Source: Anaerolineae bacterium
GTDB taxonomy: Bacteria; Chloroflexota; Anaerolineae; 4572-78; J111
Length of the DNA: 34,261 bases
Reading direction: 5' to 3'
Assembly (NCBI GenBank): GCA_016931895.1
Contig: JAFGDY010000045.1
Location: 1 to 34,261 of the forward strand
Shown piece by piece: positions 1,417 to 6,719 of the stretch. The notes beneath the pieces are model-generated. The model did not search any database and had not been told where the DNA came from. It saw only the letters and a list, made by a program, of their open reading frames with translations. Within the stretch, counting starts at the first letter, position 1, and every line of letters begins with the position of its first letter. A program made the position numbers and the translations under genes.

Positions 1417-3159
1417 TCATTTAACTCCAACCAACCAGCGCAAATCTGTCTGCGTCGTTGGCGTTTGGATGATATGCTTGTATGGATTGTAATCTGGAAC
1501 AGGGAAATCAACCAGACCTTCAGCCCGCAAATCTTCAATAATCCTTAATCGCTTTGGCGTTCCGTCATAAGCCATAAAGATAATTTGATTGTACGGCGTC
1601 ACTGTTTCTGCCCAAAGATTTCTGGCGCCTTCTTTAAGGAATAACTTTTTACGGATAAAGCCGTCTGCCGTAAAAAGCAACTTTTGGTCAAAAACTTCTC
1701 CTCTTAAATCATGTTTGCCATATAGTACATTGAGGGCACTCGTAGCTACCCAACTGGCGTCTAATGGCAACCTCTTTCCATTTGGGTTAAAAGAAGGTTT
1801 CTCATTGGTATCGCCTGACAATATAAAATAAATGACGGTTTTATCTTTGAGGTCTGGAGCCAGAGAAAAAAGTTCGTGCCATATCTGTTTCTGTTCTTCC
1901 CAGGCGATTCGGTTATCATATTGCACCCGGGCTTGCGCCGCTACTCCCCAAAAAAACAAGGGGGCCATTCCCGTTAAGACCACAAAATTGAGTTGCGATG
2001 ATCTGCGCGCCCGAAACAAAATTAAGGTTGCCAATAAAGCTACAATGGTTACGGCTGCGCCAAACTGAGCAAAAATATTTGCGCGGGAACCCAATGGTGA
2101 TAAGTTAGGGCTATCAACCGCAATCACCGGAATATATCCTATGGCAATGAACAACCCGCCGGTTAACATAACCCACATAAAACGGCGTATCAGCGCCAAA
2201 TGCTCTTTTTGCTTTAAAGTCACACGTTGTAATTTGCAGAGCCGACTAATCACATCACCTATAAAGCCACAAATTATTACAGCTAAAAAAAAGGCAATGA
2301 TGGCCTGCCACTTATTCAGGTAAAAAGCGTAAACCAGCGGTTCCAGCCATGCCCAAACCATCACCCGGTACCCCAAAATTAAACGTTCCATCAGCACAAG
2401 CGGCGTAAGTTGAAATCTGTTAAGGTAATTATCGTTGACGCCTATCAACAAATAACCAATCGTCCGCCAGAACATGAAGATAAGACCCAATATAAGCGGC
2501 AGCCATAAACCCAACCTATCTCGCCAGGAACTTGTCTTTTTAATCAAAAAAAACAGTAATACCCCCCAAGCCATCGCTACCCCAAACTGGGCTTCATATA
2601 TGCCAAAAGAGAGTAACAAACAAATTATTGCTATCCATAAAGCAACCCGGCATCCCGTATCGACGTAAATCACCAAGAGGTATGCATACAACAAAGTAAG
2701 CACAACCACCAGCCGGATACCGACCATCGTCAACCACATGTGGGTGAAGTCAGCCGGATACACCAGAAAAAGAGCGGCCACACTAAAGGCAAGAGGCGCA
2801 TTATCTGGCATAAATCTTAGCATAAGAAAATATAGTTGGATGGCCGCCAGCACATTTAGCCCCCAGAGCACAACATAAAAGGCATGCAAATTTAAACCAA
2901 AAACGGCATGCAGCATTAAAATTGGAGCTTCCAGCAAAGGGCGCCGTTCTGTCCAATCAAACCACTTCAATGAATCACCATACCACCGGCCAATAATATG
3001 TGACCAATCATCGCCATATAGAATAGGGGCATAAAAAAGCCAATAGGATGCAGCGCCAATCACCATTAACCCAATCGCAAACCAGGTATGCTTATTAAAG
3101 GCAAGGCGTTTGCTACTATTTTTACAACAATCGGCGCAGCTACTCCTGAAAAACATCAT
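1417..3159 (-). CDS. Multi-pass membrane protein, putative GT-C glycosyltransferase
   Basis: 580 residues. Residues about 25-430 are a series of hydrophobic helices; the last ~140 residues (from about 440) form a soluble, probably extracytoplasmic domain beginning near KDKTVIYFILSGDTNEKP. The loop after helix 1 holds LYGDDWSHIIGRWYG, an acidic pair placed where GT-C transferases carry catalytic Asp/Glu. I do not recognise a named family. Its ATG at 3157-3159 overlaps the stop of the upstream gene (TGA at 3156-3158) as ATGA, so translation is probably coupled. Two consecutive ATG codons leave the start uncertain by one codon. Its place among glycosyltransferases suggests a role in cell-surface glycan assembly; this is inference. 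Confidence 0.65.
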   Translation of the reverse strand: MMFFRSSCADCCKNSSKRLAFNKHTWFAIGLMVIGAASYWLFYAPILYGDDWSHIIGRWYGDSLKWFDWTERRPLLEAPILMLHAVFGLNLHAFYVVLWGLNVLAAIQLYFLMLRFMPDNAPLAFSVAALFLVYPADFTHMWLTMVGIRLVVVLTLLYAYLLVIYVDTGCRVALWIAIICLLLSFGIYEAQFGVAMAWGVLLFFLIKKTSSWRDRLGLWLPLILGLIFMFWRTIGYLLIGVNDNYLNRFQLTPLVLMERLILGYRVMVWAWLEPLVYAFYLNKWQAIIAFFLAVIICGFIGDVISRLCKLQRVTLKQKEHLALIRRFMWVMLTGGLFIAIGYIPVIAVDSPNLSPLGSRANIFAQFGAAVTIVALLATLILFRARRSSQLNFVVLTGMAPLFFWGVAAQARVQYDNRIAWEEQKQIWHELFSLAPDLKDKTVIYFILSGDTNEKPSFNPNGKRLPLDASWVATSALNVLYGKHDLRGEVFDQKLLFTADGFIRKKLFLKEGARNLWAETVTPYNQIIFMAYDGTPKRLRIIEDLRAEGLVDFPVPDYNPYKHIIQTPTTQTDLRWLVGVK

Positions 3160-5117
3160 GGCAGCTTATTGGTTTCTGTAAATATTTCACACGCCACAAT
3201 AAATAAATTTTCAGTCTGAAATAGTTTATCATTCTCAGGAATTGCGGCTAAAATAAAGGTATCCTGGCTAGAAATACGAGCCATTAATGCCTGATTATAG
3301 GGTTCATAAAAAATTTGTCCCTGTTGCAGATATGCTTTGGCGTAAGTTTTGCGGTCAATCACTAAATAATCAACCTGGCGCGTGTGGCAAAAATCAACCA
3401 GGGTTTGGGGATTGGCTGTGTAATAGGCCGCCAACGCCTCCCGAACAATCGTCGCTTCACCACTTTGTTCGCAGCTGAACAGGATTTTTCGTTTGGCAAA
3501 CAGGGGCACGCTGTCCAAAGCGTAGGGCGTGCCGGCAATTAATACATCTTTGGGTAAGGTTTCCAAAAACTCAAATAAAGCTCGTTCATGGGGCGCCGGA
3601 TTCAGGTAGCTAACCTCGGTGAATATTGGCGCGTAAACAGCCCAACCAAACAAAAAAAGCGCGCTTCCTGCGCCCATTAATATTTGACCGGCAAACGTTT
3701 GCCTCAAGCCAGATTCAATCGTTCTGGATTGGCCCAATCCGGTTACATTTGCAGTTGAACGTTGTGATTTTCTAATGACGGCAATGCCCAATATGCCACA
3801 GGCCAATCCGGCCGGCACCAACAGCCATTTCATATTAAACCGGCCAATCATTGTCCACTCAGACGGATACCACACCGCTAACCCCAAAACCAACATCTCA
3901 ATTCCCGCAATTAACCAGATTAATCGTTGCGGATGACGCCGAATCAAGGTGGGCGCTTCTTTAACCGCATCTATCATATTCAAAAAAACAAACATCAGGA
4001 GAAACAAAAATAGTCCTATTCTGGTGTATCGACTGGGCCAATAGAGAAAATTTGAACCCAACAACCAAATCACCAACCAGGACAAAACAAACATTAATAG
4101 GGCAGCGCCCAACATGCACCAGATGATGCGGGGCAGGTCAAACGCCTGCCCCCCCCGAACCAAATAAATCAAACAGCCAATAGAAAACAGGATAAACAAG
4201 TTTATCAAATCTTCGCCCAGGTCAACCAGGCCGCCTCGGCCAACCAGCGGAAAGATGACAAATAGAGGATGAGAACCTCCCGAACGATGGGCGGGGTTGT
4301 CCCATAAATATTGAGAGGTTGACGCCGCTTCAGAAGTTTGTTCTTGTTGGCCGGTTGCTGCCGGTTTTACCGTTGTGGCTACGCTCCTTATCTGTGACAG
4401 GGGGATAGGCAAAAGAAGCAAAGCCCCCAAACAAATAACAATAAACAAAGCCCCCAATCCTCCCTGCCCTAACGATAATTTGGGGTGTAAAGACCAATTT
4501 GCCTTTAACGCAAATACGCCCCAAATAGCGACCCCCAGGGCAAAAACCGGGGCAAATATCAATGCGCTTAACAGGATAACGACGGCGGCCGCAATATATT
4601 TCTGGCGATGTAAATAGTAAATTAGAGCAATAACCAAAGGGGTGGCAAAAGACCTTTGTAATCCATTAACAATAGAAATGCCCGAAGAAGAGGCTAAATT
4701 AAAAAATATAAATCCCAGGACCAGGACAATGCCGCTGTTACGCCCCCGCGCCAAACGGCCAAATTCAAATAGATACAAAACGGTCACAGGCGCTAAAAAA
4801 AAGGGGACAATTTTACTGAACAAAACCGGGCTTACAAAAAAGCTGGCCCCATAAAAAAGCAAACTATACCCCAAACTATAAAACGTCACCGGCACATCGG
4901 CCCAGGGTAAACGGATGGTTGTATAGCCCAGAGAATAATTTGGGAAAAGCGAGGGGTCTTGAAATTTATGCATCCAGTAAAAAGTGCGGAAATCCTCATC
5001 AACCCGAAATTCATCCGCCAGCCGAGGCGCTTGCAGCCAAGCCACAGCCAGAAGAGAGATAATTATCAATATAAGTCGCACATCCAGACGTTTAATGAAC
5101 TGCTGAATATACGTCAT
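3156..5117 (-). CDS. Large multi-pass membrane protein, putative GT-C glycosyltransferase
   Basis: 653 residues: helix 1 at about 13-30, then the acidic loop DEFRVDEDFRTFYWMHKFQD (about 34-53), about eleven further hydrophobic segments, and a C-terminal soluble domain from about residue 500 (NPAPHERALFEFLETLPKD onward). An acidic first loop, many helices and an outer C-terminal domain match the general plan of GT39/GT83-like enzymes, but I cannot name a family. The ATG at 5117 has AAGGAA about 7 nt upstream. It is first in a three-gene cluster and overlaps the next gene by ATGA. A MITE-like insertion ends 24 bp upstream of the start codon, so promoter and leader may have been altered by it. 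Confidence 0.65.
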   Translation of the reverse strand: MTYIQQFIKRLDVRLILIIISLLAVAWLQAPRLADEFRVDEDFRTFYWMHKFQDPSLFPNYSLGYTTIRLPWADVPVTFYSLGYSLLFYGASFFVSPVLFSKIVPFFLAPVTVLYLFEFGRLARGRNSGIVLVLGFIFFNLASSSGISIVNGLQRSFATPLVIALIYYLHRQKYIAAAVVILLSALIFAPVFALGVAIWGVFALKANWSLHPKLSLGQGGLGALFIVICLGALLLLPIPLSQIRSVATTVKPAATGQQEQTSEAASTSQYLWDNPAHRSGGSHPLFVIFPLVGRGGLVDLGEDLINLFILFSIGCLIYLVRGGQAFDLPRIIWCMLGAALLMFVLSWLVIWLLGSNFLYWPSRYTRIGLFLFLLMFVFLNMIDAVKEAPTLIRRHPQRLIWLIAGIEMLVLGLAVWYPSEWTMIGRFNMKWLLVPAGLACGILGIAVIRKSQRSTANVTGLGQSRTIESGLRQTFAGQILMGAGSALFLFGWAVYAPIFTEVSYLNPAPHERALFEFLETLPKDVLIAGTPYALDSVPLFAKRKILFSCEQSGEATIVREALAAYYTANPQTLVDFCHTRQVDYLVIDRKTYAKAYLQQGQIFYEPYNQALMARISSQDTFILAAIPENDKLFQTENLFIVACEIFTETNKLP

Positions 5118-5141
5118 TAATGTTTCCTTAAAATACGTCTT

Positions 5142-5342
5142 GGCTCATGTATAGAATCTGCGCATGTCATTGCGAGGGATCCAGACCCTAAAGGTCTCAG
5201 AGACCTTTAGGGTCTTCAACCCCTACAATGACCCTGGTTGTGTCATTAGTAGCGAAGCGAAGCAATCCCCATTCAGTAGGGGTGGAGACCGCTTCGCCTC
5301 CGGCTCGCGGTGACATATCCGCACCCGTTTTATACATGAGCC
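5142..5342. mobile_element. MITE-like non-autonomous element, 201 bp, with 12-bp TIRs and 8-bp target duplication
   Basis: The left end GGCTCATGTATA (5142-5153) is the exact reverse complement of the right end TATACATGAGCC (5331-5342). The inverted repeat continues imperfectly for about 40 bp. The element is flanked by perfect 8-bp direct repeats TACGTCTT at 5134-5141 and 5343-5350, the signature of transposition. No coding potential. Inside is a perfect 16-bp-arm palindrome (5183-5198 and 5200-5215) and a CATTGCGAG / GCGAAGCGAAGCAATCC type sequence, a kind of intergenic repeat I associate with several bacterial genomes. It probably depended on the transposase of a full-length IS elsewhere. 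It sits between divergent genes, 24 bp from the start codon of the minus-strand gene. Confidence 0.85.
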
Positions 5343-5357
5343 TACGTCTTTTGAAAG

Positions 5358-5443
5358 TAGGACTTACGCAAATCGTTGATGCATTCCAGAGGTGACAGTC
5401 ACTTTGTAAGTGACTGTCACCTCTGGAACGTGCATAAGTCCTA
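5358..5443. mobile_element. Small palindromic element bounded by TA (second MITE-like insertion)
   Basis: Outer inverted repeats AGGACTTACGCA (5359-5370) and TGCATAAGTCCT (5431-5442) match at 11 of 12 positions. An inner perfect 21-bp inverted repeat (5384-5404 and 5408-5428) is separated by only TGT, so a transcript would fold into one long hairpin. A TA dinucleotide lies at each end (5358-5359 and 5442-5443), which would fit TA-targeting (IS630/mariner-like) insertion. The GGACTTACGCA end resembles IS ends I have seen in other bacteria, but I cannot name the family. It lies 8 bp from the right target duplication of the neighbouring MITE-like element. Confidence 0.6.
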
Positions 5444-5474
5444 GAAAAATAATATCCGAAAAATCACGAGGCGA

Positions 5475-5503
5475 TGGATTCACCTCAGAAGTAGTGATAT
5501 AAT
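5475..5503 (+). promoter_or_regulatory. Possible sigma-70-type promoter for the GT87-like gene
   Basis: A perfect TATAAT lies at 5498-5503 with a weak -35 candidate TGGATT at 5475-5480 (17-bp spacer). If it is used, transcription starts near 5510 and the first in-frame ATG (5502) could not be the start codon. The ATG at 5538 would then be the likely start. The AGGAGG at 5505-5510 is then too far from 5538 to be its ribosome binding site, so the case remains open. Confidence 0.3.
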
Positions 5504-6719
5504 GAGGAGGTCAATCATCCAATATACCTTTACTACTATGAACCATCCTAAAAAACACCGGCAAACTTTTTTGATTCTACTCGGTTTATTCATCCTGGCC
5601 GTAAGCCTAATGATCATTCCTTCTTACCATTTGCTGGTCAAACCGCGCGGCCAGGCCTTTGACCTATTTTGGATTTGGGCCGGGGGGCGGGCCATCCTGT
5701 CCGGCCAAAATCCCTACGGCCCGGAAACCACCCGGGTAATCCAGCTTGGCGTTTTCAAAAAGATCATTCCCCCTCACCAATACCAGCACGGCTTTCCTCA
5801 TCCGGCCCACATTGCCTTTGTGCTGCTGCCCTTTGTAATTGCTCCGTTTTCCTGGTCCGTATTGGTGTGGACGGCGTTGCAAATTCCCCTGTTTATGGCC
5901 ATTCTGCTGTTGGGCTTCAACTTATTGGAGTGGCCGGTTCGGCCGGCTTTTTTATTTTTGCTGACCCTGTTGACCACCCTGGGCTTTCGTTATCCCATTA
6001 ACGTTTACGTGCTGGCCCAACTCCATTTTTTTGTCCTCTTTTGTTTTTTGCTCTCCCTCTGGCTTTACCGGCAGGGCCATCCCCGCCGGGCGGCGGTAGC
6101 CCTGGCCTGCGCCACCATTCGGCCCGATCTATCATTGATTGCCATTCTGCTGGCTTTGATTCTAACCCGGAATTCGGCCAAACGCAATGAATTTATAGTC
6201 ACCCTCCTGGCCGCCGGGTTGATCTTTGCCTTACTCCCTGTCCCTTTTATTGGCGTTTGGCCCCTGACCTGGCTCAAGGCTATGCGCAGTTACGGAAATA
6301 ATCCTTTTGCCACCTGGCCGCCTGAGTTGTTGTCGTTCTGGCTTAGAGTTGTTGTTTTGTTGGGGTTGGCCGTCTGGGCCGGGCGGTATCTGATTTTAGG
6401 CTGGCGCCGGCCATCCCCTTACCACCACAGCCTGATGGTTTCCGCCGTAATTTTATTTAGCTTGATTGTTTTGCCACAAACAGGCTCTTATACGCTCACG
6501 TTTGCCTTAGTGCCGGCGTTGATTTTTTTGCGTTATGCCCAATCGCTCTGGCTGCGGGCCGTTATCACGGCCAGCCTGCTGATGCCCTGGTTTTACTTTA
6601 TGCTGGGCCGCTCTTTTGACCGGCTGATCTTTTTACTCATTCCCCTGCAATTCATCATCTTTCAGGAATTGGTCAGGCTCACCCACTCCGTCCCCCTTAC
6701 CACAGAAAACCCTTCATAG
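5502..6719 (+). CDS. GT87-like (DUF2029) polyprenyl-phosphate-dependent membrane glycosyltransferase
   Basis: 405 residues from the first ATG, or 393 from the alternative ATG at 5538 (MNHPKKHRQ), which I favour because a TATAAT box overlaps the first ATG. About nine to ten hydrophobic segments. After helix 1 comes AFDLFWIWAGGRAILSGQNP followed by YGPET, the typical GT87 first-loop pattern (acidic residue, W, then G-NPY). GT87 enzymes such as mycobacterial mannosyltransferases use polyprenyl-phospho-mannose; the donor and acceptor here are unknown. It is the only plus-strand gene in the first 21 kb and its 3' end overlaps the convergent minus-strand gene by 23 nt. Related in plan to the minus-strand genes ending at 9842 and 18257. 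Confidence 0.75.
   Translation: MRRSIIQYTFTTMNHPKKHRQTFLILLGLFILAVSLMIIPSYHLLVKPRGQAFDLFWIWAGGRAILSGQNPYGPETTRVIQLGVFKKIIPPHQYQHGFPHPAHIAFVLLPFVIAPFSWSVLVWTALQIPLFMAILLLGFNLLEWPVRPAFLFLLTLLTTLGFRYPINVYVLAQLHFFVLFCFLLSLWLYRQGHPRRAAVALACATIRPDLSLIAILLALILTRNSAKRNEFIVTLLAAGLIFALLPVPFIGVWPLTWLKAMRSYGNNPFATWPPELLSFWLRVVVLLGLAVWAGRYLILGWRRPSPYHHSLMVSAVILFSLIVLPQTGSYTLTFALVPALIFLRYAQSLWLRAVITASLLMPWFYFMLGRSFDRLIFLLIPLQFIIFQELVRLTHSVPLTTENPS

Follow-up and report, generated by a model that had tools for sequence, protein, structure and literature searches.

A MITE-like insertion with IS1595-type ends and a hairpin-repeat filling upstream of a membrane-protein-like gene in an Anaerolineae genome

The 201-bp element at positions 5142-5342 of the 34,261-nucleotide stretch analyzed here (the window; contig C45 of G000, a 6.06-Mb draft genome in 320 contigs) is very probably a non-autonomous miniature transposon of the IS1595 lineage, in which ends shared with an IS enclose a filling of palindromic repeats. 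Comparisons drew mainly on G016, which belongs to the same order as G000, and on G001, the sole congener of G000 among the genomes compared.

Anatomy of the element and its copies

The limits of the element can be read directly from its inverted ends, with GGCTCATGTATA at 5142-5153 and the reverse complement at 5331-5342; the exact 8-bp direct repeat TACGTCTT lies on either side, at 5134-5141 and 5343-5350. The two ends agree at all of the first 12 positions and at 17 of 22 overall. A repeat-finding program returned arms of 15 nt (93% complementary) and also recovered the 8-nt direct repeats and the inner palindrome. The window contains just two exact occurrences of GGCTCATGTATA. Inverted 12-mers spaced 50–400 bp apart number six in the window, against a mean of 1.17 in shuffles, and their combination with exact 8-bp flanking direct repeats was found once in the window and in none of 200 dinucleotide-preserving shuffles. 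An earlier note on this DNA had described a 201-bp element with perfect 12-bp inverted ends and perfect 8-bp flanking repeats, and both are present. The features of the region are as follows.

3156-5117, minus strand: gene of 653 aa, membrane-protein-like, with its upstream region interrupted
5123-5129, minus strand: ribosome-binding-site-like AAGGAAA, intact between insert and start codon
5134-5141, no strand: left target site duplication TACGTCTT, 8 bp
5142-5163, plus strand: left terminal inverted repeat, 22 bp, the first 12 perfect against the right end
5166-5176, plus strand: GTCATTGCGAG-type repeat of the MITE core, first part, resuming at 5253-5314
5177-5252, plus strand: 76-bp secondary insert with hairpin H2, terminating in TTAGTAG; absent from eight of nine other G000 copies
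5183-5215, no strand: hairpin H2, AGACCCTAAAGGTCTC A GAGACCTTTAGGGTCT, with 16-bp arms; present outside the MITE too, and in further genomes of the class
5253-5314, plus strand: GTCATTGCGAG-type core, second part, CGAAGCGAAGCAATCCCC ... GGTGAC
5321-5342, minus strand: right terminal inverted repeat, 22 bp
5343-5350, no strand: right target site duplication TACGTCTT, 8 bp
5358-5443, no strand: second, different MITE-like element, with ends TAGGACTTACGCA/TGCATAAGTCCTA
5384-5428, no strand: hairpin H1 of the second element, GTGACAGTCACTT TGT AAGTGACTGTCAC at 5392-5420
5538-6719, plus strand: divergent gene, weakly GT87-like (start from the G001 comparison; 5502 in the ORF list)

Searching G000 with the 201-bp sequence gave 33 matches of three kinds (the outer element, the inner hairpin and GTCATTGCGAG-type repeats), and the same query matched 26 of 61 genomes, a tally that includes genomes matching only the other repeat and not H2. 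Besides the window copy, G000 carries nine further whole or damaged copies of the MITE: six have both ends or nearly so (C205, C157, C105, C307, C163, and C277), two have lost one end (C88 and C317), and one is degenerate (C283). Only the last of these carries the H2 hairpin; since the other eight lack 5177-5252, the ordinary element is about 125 bp long and the window copy holds a 76-bp secondary insert. With that stretch removed, the window copy is 125 bp and is 83.7–95.2% identical over aligned columns to six G000 copies and 88.8% identical to one G016 copy; the C307 copy has 20 bp extra and the C157 copy a damaged right end. The 16-bp-arm palindrome that the earlier note saw nested in the element does exist, but it belongs to the stretch that most other copies lack. 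Read from its sequence, then, the element is a composite, a 125-bp MITE with a second repeat inside it and a core that resembles a third, GTCATTGCGAG-type repeat. It is a MITE, gene-less and too small to encode a transposase: it is short, has terminal inverted repeats and a duplication of fixed length, recurs at unrelated sites, and has ends in common with an autonomous element.

Similar ends recur well beyond these copies. The right end was found at 35 places in G016 (≤3 mismatches; none with the reversed control), many of them complete elements of 125–197 bp, and the MAG SulCav_AS07-7_2_58_45 (DYKX) holds 82-bp elements with similar ends. The further copies that the earlier note proposed looking for were thus found in G000 and G016 alike. 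In G000, 203 places lie within two mismatches of the 12-mer, most of them probably by chance, given that the reversed pattern already yields 126. Among 12 further G000 stretches at end-like 12-mers (one mismatch allowed, two for C1), nine lacked the 22-bp end, one had a weak end, and two (C205 and C206) proved to be an IS end.

Target duplications were scored with an element finder that required both ends plus 12 bp of flank, leaving out copies with damaged ends. It yielded 48 complete elements, not a random sample, from loci chosen for matching an end or the element; 26 had perfect duplications of 8 bp and five more had perfect duplications of 9 bp (31/48). At least seven of eight positions matched in 37 of the 48; re-pairing the flanks 1000 times gave 0.8 such elements on average and at most 5. 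The remaining 11 fell below 7/8 in register; five of them are the perfect 9-bp cases and the other six are unaccounted for. C277, a damaged-end copy outside the finder set, is flanked by AAAGAACT and AAAGAATT.

How the secondary insert arrived is less clear-cut: H2 may have moved by itself or been copied from another GTCATT-type repeat. The H2 unit with a nearly identical tail, TACAATGACCCTGGTTGTGTCATTAGTAG, occurs in the window and at four G001 loci (C154, C96, C135, and C144), each time behind a GTCATTnnGAG-like sequence; C196 of G000 has the unit behind such a sequence with a more changed tail, and no IS1595-type end is in view at C196 or at the four G001 units. C89 of G001 and C162 of G000 retain the tail and half of the hairpin. 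These shared surroundings make it a serious candidate, if not quite a favored one, that the 76-bp stretch entered when a GTCATTGCGAG-type repeat already bearing H2 recombined with another of its type, or through gene conversion between the two. Against this, the hairpin also occurs with unrelated flanks, from which it follows that H2 can travel alone. Across the examined loci it was found in 26 distinct contexts (≤4 substitutions), two of them in an IS1595-type element, and by the pattern used GTCATTnnGAG lay upstream in six of the 26. REP elements are marked by a GTAG or CGTC tag at one end and by a RAYT transposase; the 76-bp unit terminates in GTAG, and the hairpin core is also found without GTAG.

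The insertion site and neighboring genes

The gene at 3156-5117 is the first of three on the minus strand (3156-5117, 1417-3159, and 74-1354). The last of these matches PMT_2 (56.6 bits); the other two matched no Pfam family at E 0.001, and the plus-strand ORF at 5502-6719 scored 20.3 against GT87, under the cut-off of 25. The start codon of 3156-5117 (CAT at 5115-5117 on the plus strand) aligns with the start of the G001 orthologue, and the earlier note's placing of the insertion 24 bp upstream of a start codon is correct.

In G001 both flanking genes are kept (64 and 69% DNA identity), and neither MITE-like element lies between them; the start-to-start gap is 118 bp, as against 420 bp in the window. 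A relative with an empty site, for which the earlier note had asked, is therefore at hand, with flanks too diverged for a single TACGTCTT to be recognized. The empty orthologous site, the further copies, and the IS lineage with such ends described below bear out the note's reading of a MITE-like insertion. We infer that the G001 gap represents the older state and that H2 arrived later than the element that holds it.

The second element starts seven bases past the right duplication of the first and has 13 other places in G000 that cover at least 81 of 95 bases at ≥90%. Its filling, H1, also fills IS1595-type MITEs of another genome (SulCav). Two different mobile elements have probably reshaped the region upstream of 3156-5117 since the divergence from the G001 species. 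Near the plus-strand gene, the window and G001 share a stretch ATGGATTC.CCTC...TATAATGA, so that the near upstream region of this gene looks intact; by position, it is the minus-strand gene that is cut off from its former upstream DNA. The earlier note had held that the element replaced or separated the native promoter. Separation from upstream DNA stands, as a matter of position; no native promoter was recognized. Between the plus-strand gene and both elements, a terminator-like stem with a T-run lies on the minus strand at 5467-5487 (one found, 0.3 expected).

The element might instead have been kept as useful, serving as a promoter or a structured leader for gene 3156-5117. It sits just before the start codon, and the predicted leader RNA is far more stably folded than its shuffled versions (−111.9 kcal/mol, shuffle mean −70.1, z −8.9), leaving the ribosome-binding site unpaired. 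A consensus scan for outward sigma-70-like promoters found none in the element, its single hit pointing inward where 1.1 hits are expected by chance, and strong folding is expected of any palindromic MITE; we consider a useful role improbable.

Ends shared with an IS1595-type insertion sequence

In G006, ends of the same kind abut IS1595-type transposase sequence. This copy matches PF12762 (E 3.4e-16, 60.1 bits, cut-off 27); it scores 63.8 against the NCBIfam IS1595 model NF033547, below the cut-off of 75, and 23 bits against a cut-off of 25.4 for the zinc-ribbon domain PF12760. A 997-bp IS in G035 (locus L252, element at 528-1524) has such ends on both sides and the duplication TTAAGATT. In G000 itself, four contigs end in the terminal 81 or 86 bp of a single IS of the same type: the left end in C205 and C206 (81/81 identical) and the right end in C64 and C282 (86/86), while a third right end (83/83) stops near the end of C316. 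The flanks pair as 8-bp repeats, C205 with C64 as TGATTTTT and C206 with C282 as TTATTTTT, and the right ends match the G006 transposase at 92–96% over their final 24–25 codons. G000 thus appears to hold at least two copies of this IS, probably three, the interior being missing from the assembly, presumably because repeats break contigs. An IS with the same ends and 8-bp duplications, as the earlier note had suggested seeking, is accordingly present in G035 and, from its flank pairs, in G000.

Searches for the transposase were less productive. The PF12762 profile matched none of the three genomes G000, G001, and G016; the null in G000 follows from contigs breaking inside the IS, and those in G001 and G016 are without explanation. 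Protein searches recovered no intact transposase of the partner IS in G000, only C-terminal stubs (C64, C282, and C316), and not even stubs in G001 and G016. No autonomous copy was seen in G016 at 22 of the 35 right-end places, examined over ∼2.5 kb on each side where the contig allowed: by the score used, 15 had a second end within 200 bp and seven had just a single end, in several cases not far from where the contig stops, with no second end farther away than 200 bp. G006 has three more IS1595-type copies, with an open frame of 309 aa, in which the pattern used found no such ends.

Compared with the G000 IS ends, the MITE agrees at 16–18 of 22 positions and then at 1–4 of the next eight, which limits the homology to about 22 bp. 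From these ends, we consider that the MITE is, or formerly was, probably moved by the G000 IS or a close relative. The 4–6 differences within the 22 positions leave room for a different mover, and another, unseen IS1595 relative could be the one that mobilizes it.

Two transposases show a further peculiarity. In G035 (L252) and one G006 copy (L210), two frames meet at a shared GGGGGAAAAAAGG run that falls in the codons of TDEMFQNAGEK, an arrangement that looks like a programmed frameshift; IS1 uses a programmed frameshift. The G006 copies L231, L235, and L238 are open in one frame. L210 reads NTVKG where L252 has NTTEG and L200 NTMEG, and for this reason the L210 copy may be dead.

An origin as a classical decayed IS, an IS1595-type element that lost its interior, would account for the 22-bp ends and the duplications that the two have in common. 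The similarity stops at about base 22 (in G000 only the outer 81–86 bp of the IS can be compared), however, and the transposase frame of the G006 IS reaches within about 11 bp of its end, whereas the MITE interior resembles a free repeat (e.g., C18 of G000), making internal deletion very unlikely. The ISL3 family makes 8-bp duplications and has ends beginning GG, compatible with the GGCTC and 8-bp duplications seen here, but descent from it is hardly credible, as the transposases beside which like ends were found are of IS1595 type. As a candidate parent ISL3 was rejected, PF01610 (DDE_Tnp_ISL3) having no match in G000 against four positives among 14 control genomes.

Returning to a miniature transposon of the IS1595 lineage, the following steps are proposed, drawing for the transposition itself on general knowledge of DDE transposases. 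An IS1595-type transposase acting in trans would bind the MITE ends, which at ∼22 bp each are all that the MITE has in common with the transposase-bearing element, and a staggered cut at insertion would give the target duplication of 8 bp, sometimes 9 bp. The space between the ends is occupied by palindromic repeats and not by a shrunken IS: a GTCATTGCGAG-type repeat as filling, with the 76-bp H2 repeat lodged inside it in the window copy. Insertion here fell between the ribosome-binding site of gene 3156-5117 and its upstream region, in which the second MITE-like element is also located.

Hairpin fillings across genomes and known systems

A listing of 55 elements showed that interiors differ between genomes:

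G000: 5 elements, GTCATTGCGAG-type core, one with H2
G016: 23 elements, GTCATTGCGAG-type core, 21 also with hairpin CACTTGCACCGCACGCAAGTG (H3)
SulCav MAGs: 13 elements (11 DYKX, 1 DYKW, 1 DYLD), hairpin H1, GTGACAGTCACTT/AAGTGACTGTCAC
G007: 8 elements, GACCGGCCGGTC hairpin
G001: 2 elements, CTCTCCC/GGGAGAG-type repeats
G100: 2 elements, CTCTCCC/GGGAGAG-type repeats
G083: 1 element, GCGGACGTT
G018: 1 element, unclassified filling

GC occupies positions 21–22 of both ends in 54 of the 55; the finder did not require it, and many loci were found by a pattern that included GC at one end.

Three of the fillings, the GTCATTnnGAG family, H2, and H1, also exist apart from such ends. Within the first 20 contigs of G000 (265,186 bases), the 11-mer GTCATTGCGAG, allowed at most one mismatch, was found at 11 merged places, all of them away from an end; a recount on the same sample gave 12 hits, only two of them exact, where two control words had 0 and 1. 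A longer pattern gave nine hits there (control 0), most of the GTCATTTCGAG flavor, and by a loose rule one of these lay close to an end-like 12-mer. G000 thus has free members of the family, with the exact MITE-core flavor rare in the sampled contigs and a clear free copy of that flavor in C18.

H1 occurs in eight of 61 genomes, with 23 places in G000, 31 in G016 and no hit for the reversed control; the 265,186-base G000 sample contained none, and none was seen outside the MITE in the SulCav loci examined. No free GACCGGCCGGTC hairpin was found in G007 in 39,813 bases of 12 contigs. In G001 the CCCTCACCCC-type repeat was free at one place and near an end at seven, in a sample in which five of the stretches had been chosen for holding an end.

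The SulCav element deserves separate description. Its 82 bp consist of IS1595-type ends around H1, in nearly identical copies at 11 DYKX loci (L112, L113, L114, L116, L120, L121, L127, L133, L135, L141, and L144), most with duplications of 8 or 9 bp. One copy each in the MAGs DYKW (L130) and DYLD (L125, which bears the label Syntrophus) may reflect misbinning or transfer. The L130 copy (590-671) lies inside a GGAGATTGCTT-type repeat with the duplication TCGGGAGA, a reverse nesting. G016 has a third MITE-like type, with ends TAGAGTTGTTCC, that holds H1; both ends are seen in L266 and one in L151.

Like ends, 8-bp duplications, and a partner transposase matching PF12762 are features that the element has in common with the IS1595 family. 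One published IS1595-like element is described, in the part of the source covered, as 714 bp long with 18-bp inverted repeats and 8-bp duplicated target sites (PMC5424208). The window element differs from IS of this family in having no transposase and homology of only ∼22 bp per end. Several bacterial MITEs have been named, NEMIS, RUP, ERIC, Nezha, and Chunjie among them (covered parts of PMC3733652; review PMC10969869), and as described there these are likewise short, without transposase, bounded by inverted ends and duplications, mostly intergenic, and moved in trans; the present case departs from bacterial MITEs generally in that the hairpin repeats enclosed by similar ends vary from genome to genome. 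The text of the review PMC10969869 nowhere uses the words nested, chimer-, or IS1595. The parts of PMC3281130 and PMC9208149 covered contained nothing on IS1595-derived MITEs. A literature search, which covered few subscription journals, found no description of the window element and no report of a single set of IS ends whose hairpin fillings vary between genomes.

The principle of small palindromes or repeats inside larger elements has precedents. One comes from Thermomicrobium roseum, a member of the Chloroflexota. Small palindromes, in the form of REP elements, lie regularly inside larger ones in that bacterium and in Anabaena variabilis, for example; unlike here, the covered part of the source does not present the host palindromes as elements with IS ends (PMC3733652). 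The small mobile repeats SMR-A of the archaeon Haloquadratum walsbyi are comparable as tiny repeats inserted inside other small mobile elements, which they target, with 192 element-in-element events and a mover that is unknown; the SMR table, in the portion covered, has no SMR in a MITE and mainly lists PATEs and IS605-type elements as targets (PMC3119063). The window element is, in short, a real IS1595-type MITE in a usual kind of place, and its modular build is the unusual part.

Bacterial MITEs are usually explained as shrunken IS, yet many have nothing but their ends in common with any IS, and their origin is poorly settled. In the present case a single lineage of ends is traceable across several genomes, each with its own palindromic filling, and duplications show movement in several of them. 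Tentatively, and as a possibility we hold to be less than probable, the hairpin repeats of these Chloroflexota are interchangeable cargo or parasites of MITEs. Because a single end lineage combines varied fillings, duplications, and a likely partner IS, whether ends capture hairpins or hairpins invade MITEs is directly testable. Were the idea true, new MITE families would arise repeatedly as a pair of short IS ends captures a palindrome or is invaded by one, and a hairpin or cruciform between the ends would perhaps help the transposase to bring them together.
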